The notes beneath the pieces were generated by a model. The model was not told the origin of the DNA and ran no database searches. It worked only from the letters and a program-made list of their open reading frames with translations. Of a stretch of DNA of 64,000 bases, positions 9,306-58,468 are shown in pieces; position 1 is the stretch's first letter, and every line of letters starts with the position of its first letter. A program made the position numbers and the translations under genes. Source of the stretch: Caenorhabditis elegans (taxonomy: Eukaryota; Nematoda; Chromadorea; Rhabditida; Rhabditidae); contig NC_003283.11 of the NCBI RefSeq assembly GCF_000002985.6, positions 14,943,501 through 15,007,500 of the forward strand, given 5' to 3'.

Positions 9306-9326
9306 GGGGGGGGGGGGGGGGGGGGG
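9306..9326 (+). repeat. Poly-G tract, 21 G
   Basis: An uninterrupted run of 21 G lies just after the hil-1 poly(A) site. Such tracts can form G-quadruplexes and are known deletion hot-spots in worm dog-1 mutants. Confidence 0.95.
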
Positions 9327-9614: not shown

Positions 9615-11233
9615 TTAGTGAGTAATTTCAATTCTCGGGACCACAGAAATAGAAGACGTCAGAATATCGAGATGTTTACTTCTGATAAGCTGTCGAACGT
9701 CTCCATTGCACAATATGAAAATAATTCCGTTGCAAATTCCTGTAGAAATTCAACTTCTGTTTTGTAATTTTGCACATCTTCAAGTACACGCTTCTAGTTT
9801 TTGCTTGGCTGCACTTACCACTGGAAATAAGACATGCTGTATAAAAGGGCCCCAAGAGTTTAAAAATCGAGAATCCAACTAATTCCACTAACCCCACGCA
9901 GATACTTGGAACCGTGAGAAAACAGAGAGAGGAAATGAGAATTCCGGTGGATGTCCGATTTGCCTGAAAATATAACGTCTATTTTGAATTCTAAGTATAC
10001 TGAAACTTGATGATATGTATGATGTTGTTGTGGAGACACGCCGGTTGCAGCTTTGATTTTGAAGAAAAAGCTGAGAGAAAGAATTATAACTATTAAACCG
10101 AGAATCTGAAATTTCAGAGAAGTTGAAGATTTACGAGTATTCATTAGAGATAACCATATTAGATATTCCCCAATAATATCGATATTCATAACTGACAAAG
10201 CATCCACTGGTTCCACAATCTGGAACTTTACTTGGCGGCGATAAAAGAAACCACAGAATGGCATCGAATAGGCCTAGTGTCAAACCGATTGCGAGGACTG
10301 TTTCAGAATACACGCTCTGTTCAGTTTTACGGAATTGGACGGGAAAGAAAACCGCCTGGAATAAATTCAGAAATTCCACGCTTTTTAAAAACTTTCTCCT
10401 ATACTTTCCAGATTGAATTCTTACCAAATATCTGCTGAACGCGATACCAATTGTAACAATTGCTGAAATTTTCAGTTGAATTGGTAGAGATAATGAAGAA
10501 ATTAAAATGAATAGAGGGTCGAAATCTAGCCTTATTGGATTCCAATTAGCAATCATGTAAACTATATAAGGAGTTGACCATATCGCGTTGAAAAAATCAC
10601 CAACCGATAGGTAGAATACAAGACGTAGATGCTTGTTTTTTCGAAGACATGGAATTCTTCAAGTTGGAGTTAGAATTAATTACAAATACTGTATCTTTGT
10701 TAACTTTGAGTTAACTAGAAAATGCTCAACTGAACACGTGAATAACAAAAATTGGCCGTAGAGTAGAGTTTTCAAAGAAATAGAATCCTTAATAAGAAAA
10801 CTACTAAAAATTGTAGTTTCCGAATGGAGAAAACTGTTTTCGGGGATAGAATCGTTTTTGAGTTTTTTAAACATTGATAGGCTCAGAATGGCCCCAAATT
10901 ACTAGCAATAAGTTTCATATTGAGACTTTTCAAAAATGCTCAAAACGTGGAGATTCAAAATATCAAAATCACAGTGCTAACAACAACCTTGAGGCCGAAA
11001 AATAATTTTAAACTCAATTTTTTTAATTTTTAAATTGACGATTTATGAATTCGACAATTTGTGCTAGCCAATGTTCAAAGCTACATATATGTTTTACAGT
11101 CTCACTTTGCAAAGAAAATAATAATCAATCCATTGATCCCGATACAAAAAACTTGCAAAACCAACACTAGTAAGTAGGTGACAAGATATATCTCGTTTGT
11201 AATAGCTTCAACGTCAATACTCCTGTTTACCAT
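9615..11233 (-). CDS. Seven-transmembrane chemoreceptor, probably class SRBC
   Basis: The six exons, in transcription order, are 11106-11233, 10425-10656, 10155-10355, 10007-10105, 9819-9963 and 9615-9739. All are in phase, for 309 residues. The start ATG directly follows an ATTTTCAG acceptor. Hydrophobic segments are spread along the protein: VTYLLVLVLQVFCIGI (TM1), YLSVGDFFNAIW (TM2), ISAIVTIGIAFSRYL (TM3), AIGLTLGLFDAILWF (TM4), ILGLIVIILSLSFFF (TM5) and ILISSLCFLTVPSIC (TM6). The phrases PDCGTSGCF, YWGISNM and GICNGIIFI match my memory of the nematode-specific srbc chemoreceptor family. It probably acts in a sensory neuron, with an unknown ligand. Another sr class is possible. The gene looks intact. 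Confidence 0.8.
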
Positions 11234-26250: not shown

Positions 26251-27950
26251 CTACCCCACTGCCACCTTAACGACCCACTACTCTCAAGAATTAATTCTTC
26301 AGTCTAGCATTAGTAGCCGTCTTTTGTTGACGAATCACAAATCATCTATTTTCCTTAAATCGAATTCAATCTCCCGATTTAGATTTAAATCCCAGCCATC
26401 ATCCAGTCATGTTTTAGTCGTCGTCAAATTTAGAATTTAAACTCCAGAAACTCTTTTTCTGCTTCCTTCCAACGTCATGCTTATAGGGTTTCCTTTTTTT
26501 GAATGGAACAAGGAGAGACATTGCAACAGTGGTTAGCTCAACCAAAAACACGACGAGGTTTCCGTCAGTTTACTTGTCTAATTAGTCACTTTTTGACTCT
26601 TTTTTTGCAGCTAGCACGTTTTGTTTTGTTTCAAAGATCATTTGATAGTCTGAGATTTTTTGTTTGCCTTCAAGGCCTGTCTGGTTCCTAGTCGCCAACC
26701 TAAAGTGCACATATTTTAAAAGACTTGTAAACCAACTTTTTAAACAGATTAAAAGCACTGAGAATATTTGAACTTAGTTTATTTTTCTATTAGTCTTAAC
26801 ATTTCTCCAAGTTATGTAAAATGTTTATCTTTTAAATTATAGAATACTCTTGCTTTCCTAATCCTACTCCAAATATAGCTTAAATAAAAATTTGGACGCA
26901 TCGTCCAACTTTACGTCAGCCTGATCCGGATTTCCCATTAGGAAAAATGCAATTTTACGTCTTACAAGCTTATCTCTGAAATATGAAGGGTCTTATAAGT
27001 CTTCTGAAAGTTTGGCAGACTGATTGTCAAAAATCTGACATCTAAGAACTTTTTTCCCAGCAATTCTTAGAAGACAACATATGCATACACCTGGTCACAC
27101 ATGGTCACAACCATAATTTACTTTAAACTCATTCTCGATGTCTAGAACACAATAGTTCCGAAAATTTGATTAATTTTGTATTTACTAATAAATATTATAA
27201 GATTTGCGTTACTTCTTTCGCCGCCTCCTGATGCTTCTAACTTGATTTCAGTTGCTACGTAAGTTGTCAGGAAGGTGTCGGATGAAAAGTACTACATCAA
27301 ATCTTGCAAGAAAATTCTGCTATCGTAAATTTAAATCAATGAGAAATCGGGTGTAGTTTTTAGGGAGAATGGTTTAGACGAATTACTTACATCTATTTTA
27401 AGTAAGCAATAAGGCCATAAAGAACGGGAAATAAATTAAACGTCATTTCTCAAACTTAATAAAACTTTTAAATTTTGTTTTTCATTTTGCTAGAAAACTT
27501 CTCTTTCCCACCTTTCTAGAGCACTTTACCATTTTTCTAGAATATTTATCCAATTGTCTACCAATCCAGTTCATTTTTCTTTAGCAATTATATACCTTTC
27601 CATACCAAAGTCTGATTAAACCCTGTGAATTTTCAAACGAAACTAGAAAATTTCTGACAGAGGAAGTAGCGTTTCATTTTTTACGCAAACCACCTACGAG
27701 TTGACTCATCTATTTAATGACTATATTCCCCCATTCATTGTTTTCAGTTCACACATCTTTTCTCATTTTACTACATCACATATTGGTCTATGTTCACAGT
27801 TTCCAGCCACTTTCAAAACATATAACTACTGTTCTGAATCAAAAGCTGACAAATGTCAGTTGACTCGTTGTTTCTTTACCCTCGTTGTGTTTTATTGAAT
27901 TTGCTTAAAAAATATTCTGATTTCATATTTGTTGCAGGTAACAAAAAACG

Positions 27951-28527
27951 ATGTCGGCTCTACACATCGCCCGTCTTTTTCTTCTGATTGCTATTATGTC
28001 GACAGTAGTCAGTACATATGCTGTTTTGCCATCAGGTATGTTTAAGAATGTTAATTCCGGAGTAGTATTTTCATAAGTAGATTTCTTAAAAGATAAGCTA
28101 CAGTGATTTGTGTAAGAATTTAGGATAGATTGGGTGCGAAATTTTGTTTTCAAAAAGGGGGGGGGGGGGGGGTGGAATGGCGTGGTCTAACAGTTAAAAG
28201 ACAACACTTTTTGCTCTTTTTATACCAAAATGTATTTAAAAAATCTTTACTCAGAAATCGAGCAAAAGATGTTGTCGATTCAAATTTTTGTAAATTTCTA
28301 AATGCAAGTAAACGAAAAAGTTTTAACTTCCACATCTTCCAGGAGAAATCCTCTTCCGGCGACCAGCATCCTTGTTTGACCGAGCCGCCGACTACTCCGA
28401 TGACGTGGCAAAGTTTGACGAGAGTCGGGACAAACGAGAGCTCGATGGAATTGACACACAATTGAGCAAACGGACCAACTTGAAACGGCTTGTGATTTTA
28501 TCAGCACGTGGATTTGGAAAGAAGTGA
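27951..28527 (+). CDS. Neuropeptide-like precursor with allatotropin-like C-terminal peptide
   Basis: Two exons (27951-28035 and 28343-28527) encode 89 residues. TTGTTGCAG lies 13 bases before the ATG. Residues 1-24 form a clear signal peptide (ARLFLLIAIMSTVVSTYA). An acidic spacer follows, with dibasic sites at DKR, SKR, LKR and the terminal GKK. The last peptide before the stop is LVILSARGF-Gly-Lys-Lys, or TNLKRLVILSARGF if the LKR site is not cut. After trimming, the Gly would give a C-terminal amide. The ARGF-amide end resembles arthropod allatotropins (TARGF-amide). The gene sits alone behind a 15-kb gene-poor region. I do not recall a worm gene symbol for it. Confidence 0.75.
28157..28172 (+). 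repeat. Poly-G tract, 16 G
   Basis: A run of 16 G lies in the intron of the peptide-precursor gene, on the transcribed gene's coding strand. Confidence 0.95.
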
Positions 28528-33197: not shown

Positions 33198-33213
33198 CCC
33201 CCCCCCCCCCCCC
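33198..33213 (+). repeat. Poly-C tract, 16 C
   Basis: An uninterrupted run of 16 C (G on the minus strand) in intergenic DNA. Confidence 0.95.
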
Positions 33214-35006
33214 AGTTATGAGCTGCCAAGCTTGAACGATACCACACTGTAAAAAAGAAAAGCTGGGAGAAAGGGGCGCCTTCCATGACACCTTCGCCTA
33301 GAATTAGGTCTAAGTTTAGATCTAGTCCCCTTTTTTCTAAACTTCTTCTTCAGTTCCTAGTGTCTAGTTTACAGGTAATCTCTTAATTTCATCTGATTTT
33401 GTCTTCCAACTAAACTTTTGATTTCTGCCACGCCAGATTTTTGGAATGGCGTCAGCTGCTTCAAAATACTAAAAAAATCTAATCGAAGATCAAGATAATC
33501 CGAAAAATCAAATACAACCTTGGCAATAGTACAAGTGTCTGGCCGCTGTGGAAAACAATCATTTTCACTGTTTTCTTAACAAGAAATGCCATTTGCGGCA
33601 AATATTCATCCAATTAACAAATTACACGGGGTCTCTCATGCATCTAAGTGCGGTTTATTACAAGTATATGGGGAATCCACTCTGTGGATATAACCGTCTA
33701 GAATGTTCCACACATCTAGTTTTCAATTGTGTTGTTGACTTAAAAACTTTGGCATCTACTTTCAGGGTTTTGTATTAAACTAAAGTACTTTGAAGGCATT
33801 TTCCAGTTCTTCTAGTCGCTTTAAAGATTAGTATTTGGAAAAATTGAAGAATTCTAGCCTAGCAGTTCACACCTATAATTAACTATTTTTCTCACAAGGG
33901 CTTTACAGTTTTGGCTAGATTCTCAGTTTTCAAAGACTACCCCTCAATTCTGTTCCCTCTCCGGAATTCTCACTTTCACAGATTTGTTTTCTCATCCAAA
34001 CGGACTGTGATTATGTATGCATTTCCTTCTTCTTCTTTTCTTTTCCTCAATGTTTTTCGGCTTTACCTTCCCCTTCTCACATGCCAAAACAGTGTGTTTA
34101 TATCTCGAGATTCCTGGGAGGGAAAACTGCGTTTCCCATGTGTCGATTCTAATTGATTTGTTAGCCGTTTGATGCGCTTTTTGTGAACACAAAAAGCACG
34201 GTGTTTCCGCCCTTTTGTTCGAGATTTGTGACCAAAGCTAGCGCGGCTTATATGGACGTTTGGACTGTTATAGGCTACGGTTTCGGATTTCAATCTCCTT
34301 GAACCTATTTATCTCTTGATTTTTTTGTTTTTTTATTGTTTGTTTTGTTTTTGAAAATACTAGGAACTTGCAGTTAATAGAATGTGAATTAAGTTTAGAT
34401 AATTACTTTTGCGTTGAAATTTTTCTAAAATAAACTCAAATAAAAAACAAGAGTCAGTTTGTCAAATTGAAGTTTATGAGCTAATAAATGTAAAAACCTC
34501 CATTATGCTGCACTTGTTGTAGTTATTTCAATTTACAGCTAGGTAGGTCTACTTCCTAGAGCCCAACTTCCAACTGAGCATTTGGCTTGAAAAATATGCT
34601 ACTGGAAAACTAAAAACTTCCCCGTCAGTAAATTTCAAGAGACTAGAGTTTCCAAGAGCCTAGTAAAAGACTAGTGGAAATATGGAAGTTTACCTCTGAA
34701 AATCTGATTTAAACAATGAAATTTTTAGCTTTCCACCAATCAACTGAATTTCTGTTTGTTGCCGTGCAACGCTCTTTAGGGTTTTAATAAAATTAGTACC
34801 GTTTTTTTAACTTTCAAAAGTCGGAATTTGGATTTTGCAGAAATATTTTAAAACTTAATTCACAAGGTTGGCTTTTTTTAGTAAGAAATCTACAGGCTGT
34901 CAATAACCATTTCCTCGTTTTTGAAGTTTCAATTTCTCTCTATTTTCTACACCACTTCTCTCTACTTTTTACTCTAATTTTCTTCTCATTTCAATAATTT
35001 TCAGAA

Positions 35007-41445: not shown

Positions 41446-43956
41446 ATGCAGGTCTTCCACCTACAACTTGTTCTCTGTCTGATTTGTGTAGTATCAGCAG
41501 AGTATAAGAATTATGACGGGTGAGTTGGAATTTTTTGCTAAGGCTTTCAGGCTTATGAATATAAGATTAGGTTTAAGGATTAAAAATTTAGGCCTAGCTT
41601 TTGACACTAAAGATGATAGGATTCTGGCTTGAAAAAATAGGTTCATCTTCGTAGGCCTAGATATTTTGGTTTAGATTTATAGGCTCAGTCATTTAGGCTT
41701 TTATTTTCAGGTTCAGTCTTTGTTAGTTTTTAGTTTTAGATGCAACGCAAATTCGAAAAAATACTGAGCAACAAGTTTAACCCATTTTTTGAATGATTTT
41801 TTTCAGGTTCAAAGTTCTAGAAGTCAATTATGGAAATCCACGTGTCAAAAACTATATTCAAAAGCTCGAGGAGCATCTAGGATTTATGGTGAGTCCGCTC
41901 CTAACCCAAAAAATCCTAATTTTTCCAAAATTTCAGCCAGATTTTCTTGGCGAAAACTGGAAACAAAAGCAGGCTCACTACTTCATTGACAAAGATTCGG
42001 TGGAAAAAGTGAAGATCAACCTGGCTGATAACAATATCACTTATCACATGAGAGGTACGAGATCTTTGTTTAGAGTGTAATGATTTTTACGTTTTTAGAT
42101 GTAAACCCGCAAATATTCAAAGTTCGTAGAAGACGTGATCTCAATGGGGCTGTCAGTATACATGATGTAAATACGAGATATTTGAGTTATGACGAGGTAG
42201 GTGAATTGGAGGGGTTCTTTCAGAACTTATACATTTTTGTTTCAGCAAATGAAATTCTTGAACTCCCTTGCTCAACAATATCCGAATGATGTGAAGCTTC
42301 AAAATATCGGAAACTCATATGAAGGACGTTCTATTACAGCTGTCCGGGTAATTAATTTTTTATTTGATTCCATTTTTTCTTTTTTGATGACGTAGCATTT
42401 TTCAGATAGCAGATGACGGGTCAAGTAAGCCAATTGTTTGGATTGACGCAGGAATTCACGCACGTGAATGGATCTCATATAATGTGGCACTTTATTTGAT
42501 TTATACGGTGAGCAAGAAACACGAGCTTGAGAGCTCCGTCATATATTATTGTGGCGCAGAAAAATGGGTTTTTGCATTGGCATTGGCATTGGCGGCAAAT
42601 AATAAATTCATTTGGTTTTTACTAAAATTTATAATGATCACAGGCAATTTTTGCTTCTGAACATCCTCAAAATTTCGATGATTCTATATTTTCTGCAGAT
42701 TGTGAGCCAGCCAGCTTATCGTAACCTTCTCGACTCTGTCCAACTTGTCGTAGTCCCAAACACAAACCCCGATGGATATGAATACAGCCGAACCAATGAT
42801 CGAATGTGGCGAAAGACACGTTCTCGCTTCACAAACAGCCGATGCGCTGGAGCCGACGCCAATCGGAACTATCCATTCTATTGGGGTACACAGGGAGTCA
42901 GTCATTCACAGTGTTCGGAAATCTTCTGCGGTTCTCGTCCACAATCCGAGCCAGAAGTGTTGGCACTGACGAATGCGATTATAAGAGATGAGGAGAGGAT
43001 TAAGGGATACATTGCGTTGCATTCGTACGGACAAGAGATATTGTATCCATGGGGACACACACAACGAACCTATCCAACTGATGTGCAGGATTTGATTCAG
43101 GTATTTTGAGTATGATCCCGGATGATAAACGTTGTGTTTTGTGCGACAAAAATACGGTGCCGGGTCTCAAAATGACAACATTTTGTTAAATATAAAAAGG
43201 TGTGCGCCTTTAAAGAGTTTCAAACTTTTGTTGCTGCAGAATTTTCATAGATTTTCTATTGATTTTATTCAAATGTGAATGTTTAATGCATACATATATT
43301 TTTATCGAAAAAAAAAACTAGGAAAACTCGTTCAAAATTCTTTGGCAACAGGAGTTAGAAGTACAGTAATATTTGAAGGCACACACCATTCTGTATTGAA
43401 CAAAAATTTGTCGTGACGAGACCGGTTACCGTATTTCTAGCGCAAAAAACCGCGTCGATATAATATTCAAATATTATACTTTCTTCAGGTTGGTCGAGCA
43501 ATGGCATCTGCTATCCGTGCAGTCAACAATACGGATTATACAGTTGTAAACTCTGGAGATGGCCTTTGTAAGTTCCCGACGATACGATTATTCTGGTAAA
43601 CTTTATATTTCAGATCCTGCCGCTGGAGCATCAGATGATTGGGCAAAGTCTCGTGGAATCAAGTACTCCTACACCATCGAGCTCTCTCCAATTGATGATT
43701 TGTAAGTTATCCGGACTATTTTCTTTTTATTTTCACCCACTTTTCAATTTCCAGCACTGGATTCTCCCTCCCAGAAGATCGGATCAATCAAGTGTGCCGA
43801 GAAGCATTCCAGGCTATTCAAGTTCTCATGATCGAGGTCAAGTCCAAGTTCGGATTCAAACAAATGACGTCATCAACTGCATCATCTGCTCAATCGACAC
43901 TATTACTGAATCGCTTACGGACAATCGGAAATCGTGGATTTGGTCGTGGGAGGTAG
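41446..43956 (+). CDS. Secreted zinc carboxypeptidase, M14A family
   Basis: Ten in-phase exons (41446-41519, 41807-41888, 41937-42054, 42099-42196, 42246-42347, 42406-42507, 42699-43100, 43489-43567, 43614-43701 and 43755-43956) encode 448 residues. A signal peptide (HLQLVLCLICVVSA) is followed by the activation propeptide (FKVLEVNYGNPRV to about RRRRD, a likely processing site). The catalytic domain shows the zinc ligands H and E in IHAREW and the third histidine in ALHSYGQ. The substrate-binding stretch NTNPDGY and ADANRNY is present, as is the general-base glutamate in YTIELSP. It should remove C-terminal residues from peptides in the gut lumen or extracellular space. The C-terminal tail is Ser/Thr- then Arg/Gly-rich. 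Intron 7 carries an inverted-repeat element. Confidence 0.93.
43134..43456. repeat. Inverted-repeat element in the carboxypeptidase intron
   Basis: The left arm (43134-43217) includes AATACGGTGCCGGGTCTC and GTGTGCGCCTTTAAAG. The right arm (43368-43456) is its diverged complement (AAGGCACACACC, GACGAGACCGG, TACCGTATTT). The same family occurs at 49955-50027 and, as an inverted pair, at 54818-55100. Confidence 0.75.
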
Positions 43957-44246: not shown

Positions 44247-47200
44247 CTACTTTTTGAAGTAGTGTAACAGATTACGACTTGTCGGTCGTTTATCCATCGG
44301 TTTTCGTGGAGTCATTGGGATGGGCTTAGGCTTTGAATTTGATGGGCACGGAGATTGGGTTGAAGATGATTTGAGAACAAGTTTACGCGGAGAGTGAAGA
44401 GCGATCCGTTCGTCTTCGGTTATAACTTTTGAGCATGCTGATTCACCGAATTCACTGACACTTGGGAGTCTGAAACTTATAATATTGAATATTTATGACA
44501 AATTTTAATAATTTTTTCACCTCGCCCTTGTCACTGTTGCCACATTTTCTCCCTTGGTTTGCCACCAGTCTTCGATTCTCTTCTGTCCAGTCTTGCTCAA
44601 CGATTTTCCGGAATCTTCAATATCAGATTTTGAAGATTCTCCTATGAGTTTTTTGACGAATGTATCGTAGACAAAGTTTGGCAGACCCTCAGTTGGATGC
44701 TCGTTGTAAAATGGATTATTCTTCTTCTTTTTGTTACGGATTTGTCGGGGAGTACGGTAGCCGACAAGATCCTGGTTATTTGAATTAGTTGGTTGAAGTG
44801 GTGATGGTGGGGAGAAAGATAATCTGAAATAATTTTTTTAGATGCTTACGAAAAGTGTATACTTAAAATCGAAAAGGTGCAAGAGCGCTCCACGGCGAAC
44901 TGAAAACGCTCCGCCCCAAAATGTTGGGTCTCGTTGGGAATTGACGGCAAAATCCGCCGATCTCAAGGTTTTTTTTTTGATTTTTAAAATATTTTTCGTT
45001 GCAAGCGTTTAATAATTTTTTGCCGAAATTGAAAAGATATAGTAAAATGAAAAAACCTTAAACAACGAAAATTGTAGTTTTTTTAAGACGAAAATGGTTG
45101 AAAATTGGCGAAACGAACTGAAAACGTTTGGAATTACAGTTATGCCGCCAAACACCTAACGAGACCCAGCTTGTAGGGGCGGAGCGTTTTCAATTGGCCG
45201 TGGAGCACGCTTCCACGTCGATTGCATTTTTCTGATAAATATTCCTTACTTGCTCATCTTGGCTCTCGGAGATCTATTCAATCTGAGAGGTTTTGGACTA
45301 TTTGTGCAAATTGATTTTAACGGGCTTTCAAATATAGGTCTTTTCGATCCTCGATTCTTCTGTGGTGATCCACTTAGTCCGGAAGAATCAGCTCGCTGTC
45401 TGGGTGATAAGGAAATACTATCGAAACACGACATAGCTTCATCAGATTCTTTTAGCTCAAATTTCTTGATTTTTTCGTATGAAAGTCCGAGCTCCTGGGA
45501 AGTAGTCGGGTAAGAGGTATCATCTTCGTCATTCAACTTCCATGTACATCTATTCCTAGGCTCTGACCAGATTCGGACGCCTCCTTCATCACAAGACATG
45601 AAATATGTTCCACGAGAACTCCATCCGACGTTCAACACTTGCTTAAGATGACCATCGCAGGAAAATCGCGGAAGTTTCGTTCTCCGCTTGTCAATATCAT
45701 CCGGAAGTTTTCGATCATTCATGTAGTTGTATTGATCCTGAAGATCCCAAACAACAGCCCGACTATCCTCACTTCCACATGCGATCACATCAGAAACCGG
45801 AGAGCAGGCGACTTGGGTATAAAAGTTGTGAATGGTGGCGCCAGTGTAGGAATTAACTGAAAGTTCAAGGTTTTTTGTGTATTGATCGAGAACATGTGTC
45901 GGCAACGTGGTTGAAGCACAAGACATGGAATGCCACAAAGTAATGCTTTTATTTGTTTGTGACTTTCTCAATTGATGAGATACCAGAAATTCTACAAAAT
46001 TGGCTAGTATGGCATGTTCTTCTAGTATTTTTCATTAAATTTAGTGCTAAAATATGGCAAAAAAAATTTGAATTTTCTGATATTAGCTATAATTTTAGTC
46101 GAAAAAAATTGAAAAGTGCTCAAAACTTGTCTTGAAAATTACCGGAAAATTCGGCAAACGGCGATTTTTGAGCACTTTTTCAATTGTCCCAGCTAAAAAA
46201 TAAGCTACTTTCATATGAATCAAATGATTTTTTATACTCTATCACTAAATTTTAATGAAAAAATTTGTAGATTTGCCGCGGCTAAAAAATAAATCTGATT
46301 TTCTCTTCTGAGATTTCTACCCAAATTCGATAAACCTTACTCGGTGAAACAGACTCCGATGGAACGGAGTACTCGAAAATTGAAGAATCGGTGCATGACG
46401 CAAACAGTCGATTACCAAAACGATCTAATGTCAGACAAGTCACCCCATACGATTTTTTGTTGGATGTGGGAACTTTTAGAATTCTGGCTGGCTGGCCTTC
46501 TCCGTTTCTTGTCGGTTTTCGAATATCCCAGACTCGTATTCCACTATCTGCATTTTCTGAAGCACTTGCCACGTGATGCTCATCAAGAAAAAGAACACTT
46601 GTCACTTTATAACCTTCTATCGTTTTCGCTTTTGCTTTTGATTTAGGAGTTCCTGATGTTAATACTTTTGATGGTTTTGGATGTGCAGTCTTGTATGTGA
46701 TAGTTGCCATTCGACAATCTTCTTCCATCTTCTTCACTGTGGATACTCGCATATCCCAGATTTTGACTTGGAAATCACGTCCACCGGTCACAAAAACGTC
46801 TGGAATTAAATTTTTATCACGAAAAATTTTTTAAAATATCAAAAACACTTACTAGGATCATCCGGAGCGAAACAGATCGACCGTACAGATCCTTCGTGTC
46901 CAAAAAACACTTGGGACTTTCGATCCAACGTAGATTGATTTAAATCCCAACATCGAATAGTAGAATCTCCAGATATTGAAACAATTTGCGATTCCTTTTG
47001 GGGAACACCTACAACGTCCATAATTGCACCATCGTGAGCGGGAAAAACTGAAATCTTTTTGATTTTTAAATTCCTCAATCAAGGTATGCTCAGATCACAA
47101 TAAAGTTGCCGTTCTTCCAAAGGCACTGATCGATCTTGAAACTTGCGAACATCGAAAATTCCTATATTTCCCGGATCATCTCCCATGTACAAAATGTGCT

Positions 47201-50430: not shown

Positions 50431-51553
50431 ATGCTTCGTCGATTCGTACTTCTTGGTCTTGTTTGCTTGTCAATTGTCAATGCAGCATCTGATGTTGCTG
50501 GTCCATTGACTGATGATTTTCAGAGTTGGCTTATAGCGTGAGTTACATGCTTTATTGTTTTAAAGCACAACTTTTGTACTTTCAGTAACGGTTACTCATC
50601 TTATGACTTTGTTCGAGCAGACTATGGAACTCAGGGAAGCTATGGAGGAAAAACTGCAAATGCTCCAAAAGCCGTCAACACTCCAGTTGTCTTTATTCAT
50701 GGAAACTCTGATGCTGCACTTCATGTGAGCTCCGCTGCTACTGGATGGTCGAACTCTATCGAATACTTCCTTGAGCATGGATACACCGTTGCAGAGCTCT
50801 ACGCGACGTCTTGGCAGGACACCAATGCTTTGCATGCAGCATCGAGAACCCATAATTGCAAGGATCTAGTCAGACTTCGCAAGTTCCTCGAGGCAGTGCT
50901 CGCCTACACAGCTGCTCCAAAGATCTCAGTTGTCACTCACAGTATGGGAGTTACCCTTGCCAGAAAGATCATCAAGGGTGGATCAGTCAGTGCATCTGAT
51001 GGTTCCTGTGATTTGGGTCTTCCGTTGAACAAGAAGGTCGAGGTGATGATTGGAATCTCTGGTGCCAACTACGGACTTTGCAATTGTGAGGGTGGAAGTG
51101 CAACACTTGAAAAGACATGTAACAGAGTGAATGGTCTCTGGCCAGGAGATTCTTGTGGATTGAACTACTTGGATTGTGGATTGACACCTCTTCCATGGCC
51201 ATGCAGTGGTGTCAACTATTCCTCATTCTTGATGCAACTCAATGCAGATAAGAATAAGGAGGGAGACTACGTATTCAGCATGTGGAGTCTTTGTGAGTTT
51301 CAGAGTTTCATAGTTTCAATTTCAAAAATCCCATTTTGATCAAAGAAATCTAGTGCCAACTAATTTATTAATTTCAGCCGATGATCTTATTGAATACGGA
51401 ACCCAGGTATGGGGACGTTCAACATGTTTCATTCCGACTTCTGATGGAAAAGTCGTCTACCATGTCTATACCCATATGGAGACCAAGGAGTTGACCTATG
51501 TGGATCAATACCAGATGGTCAAATACAAGACTATCCCAACACCAACTGCATAA
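50431..51553 (+). CDS. Secreted class-2 lipase
   Basis: Three in-phase exons (50431-50537, 50586-51292 and 51378-51553) encode 329 residues. A signal peptide (RRFVLLGLVCLSIVNA) precedes an alpha/beta hydrolase domain. The oxyanion strand is TPVVFIHGNSDAA, and the nucleophile elbow is VVTHSMGVTLAR, with Ser in HSMG. The several paired cysteines (CNCEGG, CNR, CGLNYLDCG) are typical of the nematode expansion of this family. The C-terminal histidine candidates are in YHVYTHMETKEL. It probably hydrolyses triacylglycerol or other esters in the intestine. Confidence 0.9.
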
Positions 51554-57267: not shown

Positions 57268-58468
57268 TCAGACCTTCTTTCCCTTGACTGGGCGGTAGAC
57301 AGCAACCACGACAGCGTGGTCTCTCTCATACGGCTCCAGGGTTACCTGCTCAAGTGGCTTGAACTTCTCCTCCTTCAGCTTGTTGACTTCACCAGCAAAT
57401 ACAGCCTCGGGCTCAGCAGTACTGTCAATGCAATTAGCTTTGATAGAGATGACGGCATGTCCACCGTTGCGAAGGAAGTTTTGGGCATTGAGAGCAACAA
57501 TACGAGCTTGATCTGGCTGAGCAACATCAGAAAAGATGACATCGACCATTCCTGTAATATAAATATTAAACACAAAAATGCTTAAATTTAATACTTACCG
57601 ACAAGCATGCGGTACTTGTGTGGATGTCTGGCATCTTCGACAATTGGGACAACGTTTGGTCTCTTCTTGGCAACTCCCAAAAGGTCACGTCCAGATCTGT
57701 GAGAGAACTCAACAGCATAAACGATTCCTTCTGGTCCAACGACGTCAGAACAATGGGAAACAGTAGTTCCAGAAGCAGCTCCGAGATAGAGAAGTTTGGT
57801 TCCTGGCTTGATGTGAGTGTTCTCCAATCCTCCCATGATGGAAGCAGCGAGCTTAGAACGGAATGGATTCCACACACGGTACTCGATTGAGCCAGCTCCG
57901 TCATCGACGGACACTCTCTTCTCTCCGTACACGGACTCTCCCACAACCATGTTCTTTGTGGCAAGAGCATCTTCCTTTCCTTTCACGATGAATACTCCAC
58001 CGAGACGATGTGGTTCGACAACGACAGTCTTTCCTCCTCGCATTCCACCGGCTCCTCCGCGTCCACCACGTGGTGATCCTCTTCCGCCTCTTGGAGATCC
58101 ACGTCCTCCGAATCCTCCTCTTGGTGATCCACGGCCACCAAAACCACCTCTGAAAAATTATCGTTTTGATGGCGAACAGAATTATAAAACACAAACCGAT
58201 CACCACCGCCTCTTCCTCCACGGAAACCACCGCGGTCTCCACCTCCGCGTCCTCCTCTGAAGCCTCCGCGATCACCTCCACCGAAACTGCCACGATCACC
58301 TCCGCCATATCCTCCACGACCACCGCCTCCAAATCCACCTCTGCTACCACCACGGTCTCCACCGCGTCCACCTCGGAAACCTGAAAAATAATATTTATAA
58401 TACGAAAAAATCCTGAAATTCAGTTTACCTCCGCCGCCGCCGCCACGATTGAACTCTGGACGTCCCAT
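57268..58468 (-). CDS. fib-1: Fibrillarin, box C/D snoRNP 2'-O-methyltransferase
   Basis: Four exons (58429-58468, 58197-58380, 57599-58149 and 57268-57551) encode 352 residues. The N-terminal Gly/Arg-rich domain consists of GGRGG, GGDRGG and GGRGSPRGG units. The methyltransferase domain begins near [13 protein letters not shown] and shows the SAM-binding loop [12 protein letters not shown]. The following acidic residue is in [13 protein letters not shown], and VEDARHP and the catalytic DVAQPDQA segment follow. It methylates rRNA in the nucleolus guided by C/D snoRNAs. It is the first gene of a two-gene cluster with rps-16. Confidence 0.98.

Follow-up and report, generated by a model that had tools for sequence, protein, structure and literature searches.

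The 13-residue allatotropin (AT) starts with an N-terminal Gly-Phe, and the conserved domain of its precursor has cysteines and is located after the peptide. The C-terminus of allatotropin is TARGF-amide (PMC4357254). It has been described that AT precursors bear this further conserved domain, that the shared domain helped to connect orexins and allatotropins, and that vertebrate orexin precursors have also lost it (PMC5818035). Therefore, the absence of the domain alone cannot exclude kinship with allatotropin. In nematodes, AT receptors have been reported as lost together with the AT peptides (PMC4772807), and the absence of the allatotropin system from nematodes is likewise cited elsewhere (PMC4357254). 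The nematode RPamides (nlp-2, -22, -23, -46 and -85), which are GnRH/AKH-related, end in Arg-Pro-amide, and GNRR-3 and GNRR-6 are receptors for NLP-2/NLP-22 (PMC7303124). Filarial nlp-85 carries the motif A(A/V/T)MISGRGF, and nlp-60 is described as a gene whose RPamide peptides have been lost (PMC8764417).

Here, a candidate neuropeptide gene is described from the window, i.e., the whole stretch of 64,000 nucleotides of Caenorhabditis elegans chromosome V that was analysed (Table 1). The candidate occupies V:14,971,451-14,972,027. According to translation and the splice model, a precursor of 89 residues is encoded by two exons spliced over a 307-nt GT-AG intron. Exon 1 comprises 85 nt and ends at the donor CAG/GTATGT, and the acceptor CTTCCAG precedes exon 2. 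The last base of exon 1 starts a codon that is finished at 28343, so that the coding frame depends on exon 1; frame 1 of 28343-28527 is interrupted by stops and is not the coding frame. When eight acceptors were compared with the same donor, 28343 alone yielded the 89-residue product, and by a simple consensus count it is joint best with two others. Exon 2 and exon 1 have GC contents of 0.497 and 0.435, respectively, compared with 0.30-0.33 in the flanks and the intron. An acceptor-like TTGTTGCAG, recognized by eye, ends at 27937, 13 bases upstream of the start codon, and would suit trans-splicing or another exon further upstream. Transcription, splicing and peptide of this two-exon gene are all predicted from the sequence.

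Table 1. Predicted features of the candidate gene (positions in the window).
Feature	Position	Strand	Basis
Coding exon 1, with the start codon, a signal-peptide-like stretch and the opening base of a Gly codon	27951..28035	+	Translation, splice model
Intron, 307 nt, GT-AG, contains a 16-G run (28157-28172)	28036..28342	+	Splice model
Coding exon 2, including the stop; RR, KR, KR and KR sites in the propeptide, then the C-terminal peptide	28343..28527	+	GC 0.497
Longer alternative peptide TNLKRLVILSARGF-amide, internal KR left uncut	28474..28515	+	Predicted from the dibasic map
Predicted mature peptide LVILSARGF, amidated	28489..28515	+	KR before, GKK-stop after; cleavage and amidation predicted
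Gly amide donor, Lys-Lys, TGA stop	28516..28527	+	Sequence

Besides the 16 G at 28157-28172 within the intron of the candidate gene, other long homopolymer runs in the window are 21 G at 9306-9326 and 16 C at 33198-33213. In C. elegans dog-1 mutants, long poly-G runs are prone to deletion.

In translation, the spliced product ends SKRTNLKRLVILSARGFGKK-stop, the precursor terminating in LVILSARGFGKK. Dibasic pairs are found at residues 34, 59, 71 and 76 (RR, KR, KR and KR), with a terminal KK at 88. Judged by eye alone, the N-terminus resembles a signal peptide, with a hydrophobic core and a putative T-Y-A cleavage site. The initial annotation had taken 28343..28527 as the precursor; this sequence is present, but it is only exon 2, and exon 1 at 27951-28035 is also required. 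Both the dibasic sites that had been claimed, located now as four internal pairs, and the succession of LVILSARGF, Gly-Lys-Lys and stop are contained in the 89-residue spliced translation, and the earlier reading as an amidated neuropeptide precursor appears well supported at the level of sequence. The calculated m/z of LVILSARGF-amide is 974.6145 (1+) and 487.8109 (2+), and that of TNLKRLVILSARGF-amide is 793.9963 (2+). Peptidomics data sets named in PMC9881375 include C. elegans runs on Panorama and, in a paragraph on Steinernema, PRIDE PXD034629.

The window contains 298 stop-to-stop ORFs of at least 60 aa, five of which end in Gly-basic; two of these five have at least three KR/RR pairs near the end. 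At least four KR/RR pairs and a Gly-dibasic end were found in a single ORF of the 298, namely the candidate precursor, and in none of 28,106 ORFs (likewise at least 60 aa) across 120 windows of 64 kb simulated with a third-order Markov model. A minus-strand ORF at 34066-34308, with at least three KR/RR pairs and a Gly-Arg end, passes the looser filter too. Scanning of the C. elegans genome (100,286,401 bases, 7 contigs) for ARGFG-[KR][KR]-stop gave four IUPAC matches, one truly encoding the string and three reading ASGFGNHW; an independent-residue estimate gives about 0.03 expected per genome versus the one found. Prokaryote contigs gave 234 pattern matches, none of them confirmed, as expected. 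At E values up to 10, a genome search with the exon-2 part of the precursor (60 aa) retrieved no sequence but the query itself, i.e., no paralogue of exon 2 was detected. No Pfam family reaches its cut-off, and ETRAMP, the sole family listed, was rejected (E 0.0072; 16.7 bits vs a cut-off of 29.1). Rfam and tRNA scans gave no match.

Elsewhere in the window, Pfam identified domains of fibrillarin (57591-58157, minus strand, E 1.7e-64), zinc carboxypeptidase (42606-43106, plus), WD40 (46285-46830, minus), class 2 lipase (50542-51336, plus) and the Srbc chemoreceptors (10134-10658, minus). The fibrillarin domain fits the place of fib-1 on chromosome V.

The genome was also searched for receptors of the orexin/AT type. 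The sole query was the core of human orexin receptor 2, a sequence confirmed against PDB. It gave 35 exon matches, the strongest with 28% identity over 160 residues and the highest identity being 41% over 56 residues. Six of the 35, a set that lacks ranks 2, 4 and 5 and so is not the top six, were compared singly back to PDB, where their best matches were the prolactin-releasing peptide, serotonin 2C, orexin 1, orexin 2, dopamine D3 and somatostatin 5 receptors. Beyond these six, L008, the second-best match, had no PDB match at a strict E of 1e-18 and is uninformative, L019 was covered only as joined with the gene matching NPFF, L010 and L011 were covered by translation, and 27 of the 35 were not taken back. 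The orexin identity of the single exons L009 and L014 was rejected, since the best match shifted once each exon was extended by others from its own gene. For the first gene, the joined exons matched the cholecystokinin A receptor with 135.7 bits versus 110 for OX1R (first helix left out); for the second gene, NPFF receptor 2 scored 107.1 bits versus 98.7 for OX2R. Among the six exon matches taken back, out of 35, no orexin-type receptor is left standing. In the literature, tkr-1, tkr-3, npr-14, npr-22, C49A9.7 and C50F7.1 are lumped in a neurokinin/NPFF/orexin group (PMC3524798), and such a lumped group including C. elegans receptors is also found in PMC8515059. FRPR-18 has been called orexin-like, with FLP-2 as its reported ligand (PMC10293903).

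The initial annotation had called the peptide allatotropin-like, and the resemblance itself stands. Like the arthropod allatotropins, the worm peptide has an (S/T)ARGF-amide end with hydrophobic residues just upstream; its C-terminal SARGF-GKK-stop carries Ser in place of the Thr of TARGF-amide, and four terminal residues are identical besides a few conservative ones. The 13-residue register NLKRLVILSARGF / GFKNVEMMTARGF has five identities, five to each of two insect allatotropins, and its score was reached by none of 20,000 full shuffles for Manse-AT and by one of 20,000 for the locust peptide. For the first eight residues alone, the score was equalled in 2.3% and 3.5% of shuffles for the two insect allatotropins. 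Such a register needs the internal KR to be left uncut. Unlike the arthropod allatotropins, the worm precursor has no cysteine and no residue beyond GKK, the peptide being terminal, and it lacks the Gly-Phe N-terminus, as had been cautioned earlier: Asn-Leu stands at the aligned positions. The C-terminal nine residues obtain scores of 24 and 23 with the two insect allatotropins and of 23, 27 and 23 with the three forms of NLP-85, a filarial RPamide; NLP-22 and NLP-2 give 12 and 14. Because NLP-85 scores equally well, the allatotropin match is not specific, and a few hydrophobic residues followed by RGF have no diagnostic value. Homology with allatotropin, weakened by the precursor anatomy, by the literature on nematode loss and by the NLP-85 control, which is counted as the weightiest evidence, is not supported. 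It is very unlikely that the peptide represents a true but degenerate nematode allatotropin of the orexin/AT superfamily, in which the ARGF-amide was kept while the N-terminal GF disappeared, as did the C-terminal portion of the precursor. The single genomic ARGFG-dibasic-stop, the 5/13 identities to Manse-AT with their rarity among shuffles (N-terminal eight residues included), the parallel loss of the precursor domain in vertebrate orexins (PMC5818035) and the classing of C. elegans receptors as orexin-like in some papers (PMC3524798, PMC10293903) favour such an origin, whereas the precursor anatomy, the reported loss in nematodes (PMC4772807, PMC4357254), the equally good NLP-85 score, the KR that must stay uncut and the fact that no orexin best match persists among the exons taken back, once more exons are joined, argue against it. 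It seems likewise highly improbable that the orexin/allatotropin system survives as TNLKRLVILSARGF-amide or LVILSARGF-amide with a receptor too diverged to recognise. The NLP-85 scores of 23-27, which make this RPamide as close to LVILSARGF as allatotropin is, could also point to a diverged nematode RPamide member with its terminal RP lost, for which nlp-60 offers a comparable precedent. Nevertheless, the defining RPamide end is missing, the candidate C-terminus being RGF-Gly-Lys-Lys rather than Arg-Pro-amide, the scores against NLP-22 and NLP-2 are low and exon 2 has no relative in the genome, which renders this origin quite improbable.

The locus is probably a neuropeptide gene of the usual nlp type, located on chromosome V of C. 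elegans, and its main bioactive peptide would be LVILSARGF-amide. It shares with the nlp genes of this species the short, presumably secreted precursor, the dibasic sites, the predicted amidated C-terminal peptide and the small gene, and differs from them in having no Pfam family at the cut-off and no exon-2 paralogue. The architecture is read from the DNA, and processing, amidation, expression and receptor would follow from standard neuropeptide biology. The 89-residue precursor would enter the secretory pathway, a prohormone convertase would cleave at the KR/RR pairs, a carboxypeptidase would remove basic residues, and the C-terminal glycine would be converted to the amide. LVILSARGF-amide would then be released and may act on a peptide G-protein-coupled receptor. 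If the gene is of the nlp type, the rare full-shuffle score against allatotropin (0 and 1 per 20,000) must count as coincidence, and the ARGF ending common to insect allatotropins and the worm peptide is most likely convergent. Compatible with the nlp-type assignment, as a variant of it, is a different main product, either TNLKRLVILSARGF-amide (14 residues) or some other fragment, for instance ELDGIDTQLS. The spacing KR-TNL-KR is very tight, and with so short a spacer between two KR sites the longer form may be the true peptide; KR belongs to the standard cleavage sites of convertases, however, and the amide signal is predicted on the C-terminal fragment only, so that a different main product is unlikely, though less so than the allatotropin and RPamide origins. 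The same neuropeptide-like features might arise in a chance ORF where no gene exists, but none of the 28,106 simulated ORFs equals the candidate, a signal-peptide-like exon with matching phase lies immediately upstream and the GC content of the candidate exons is exon-like, all of which makes chance exceedingly improbable.

In the literature searched, whose scope left most subscription papers and supplements outside, there is no report of LVILSARGF or of an SARGF neuropeptide in C. elegans. Matches for ARGF-amide together with nematode appear to concern only aphid, locust, Rhodnius and a snail metagenome. Among six fragments of the precursor, LVILSAR alone was matched, in one malaria review, and was judged a chance match. 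Several nlp genes, nlp-59, -69, -70, -73 and -80 among others, are placed on chromosome V in a strain table (PMC10077061), and the candidate may therefore be one of them; on balance, the gene is probably annotated already. An nlp-type gene would mean one more amidated peptide, or a match to an annotated one, in a closely mapped nervous system, and LVILSARGF-amide would serve chiefly as a ligand in the screening of orphan receptors. The allatotropin link would reopen the accepted loss of the orexin/allatotropin system in nematodes only if it were true.
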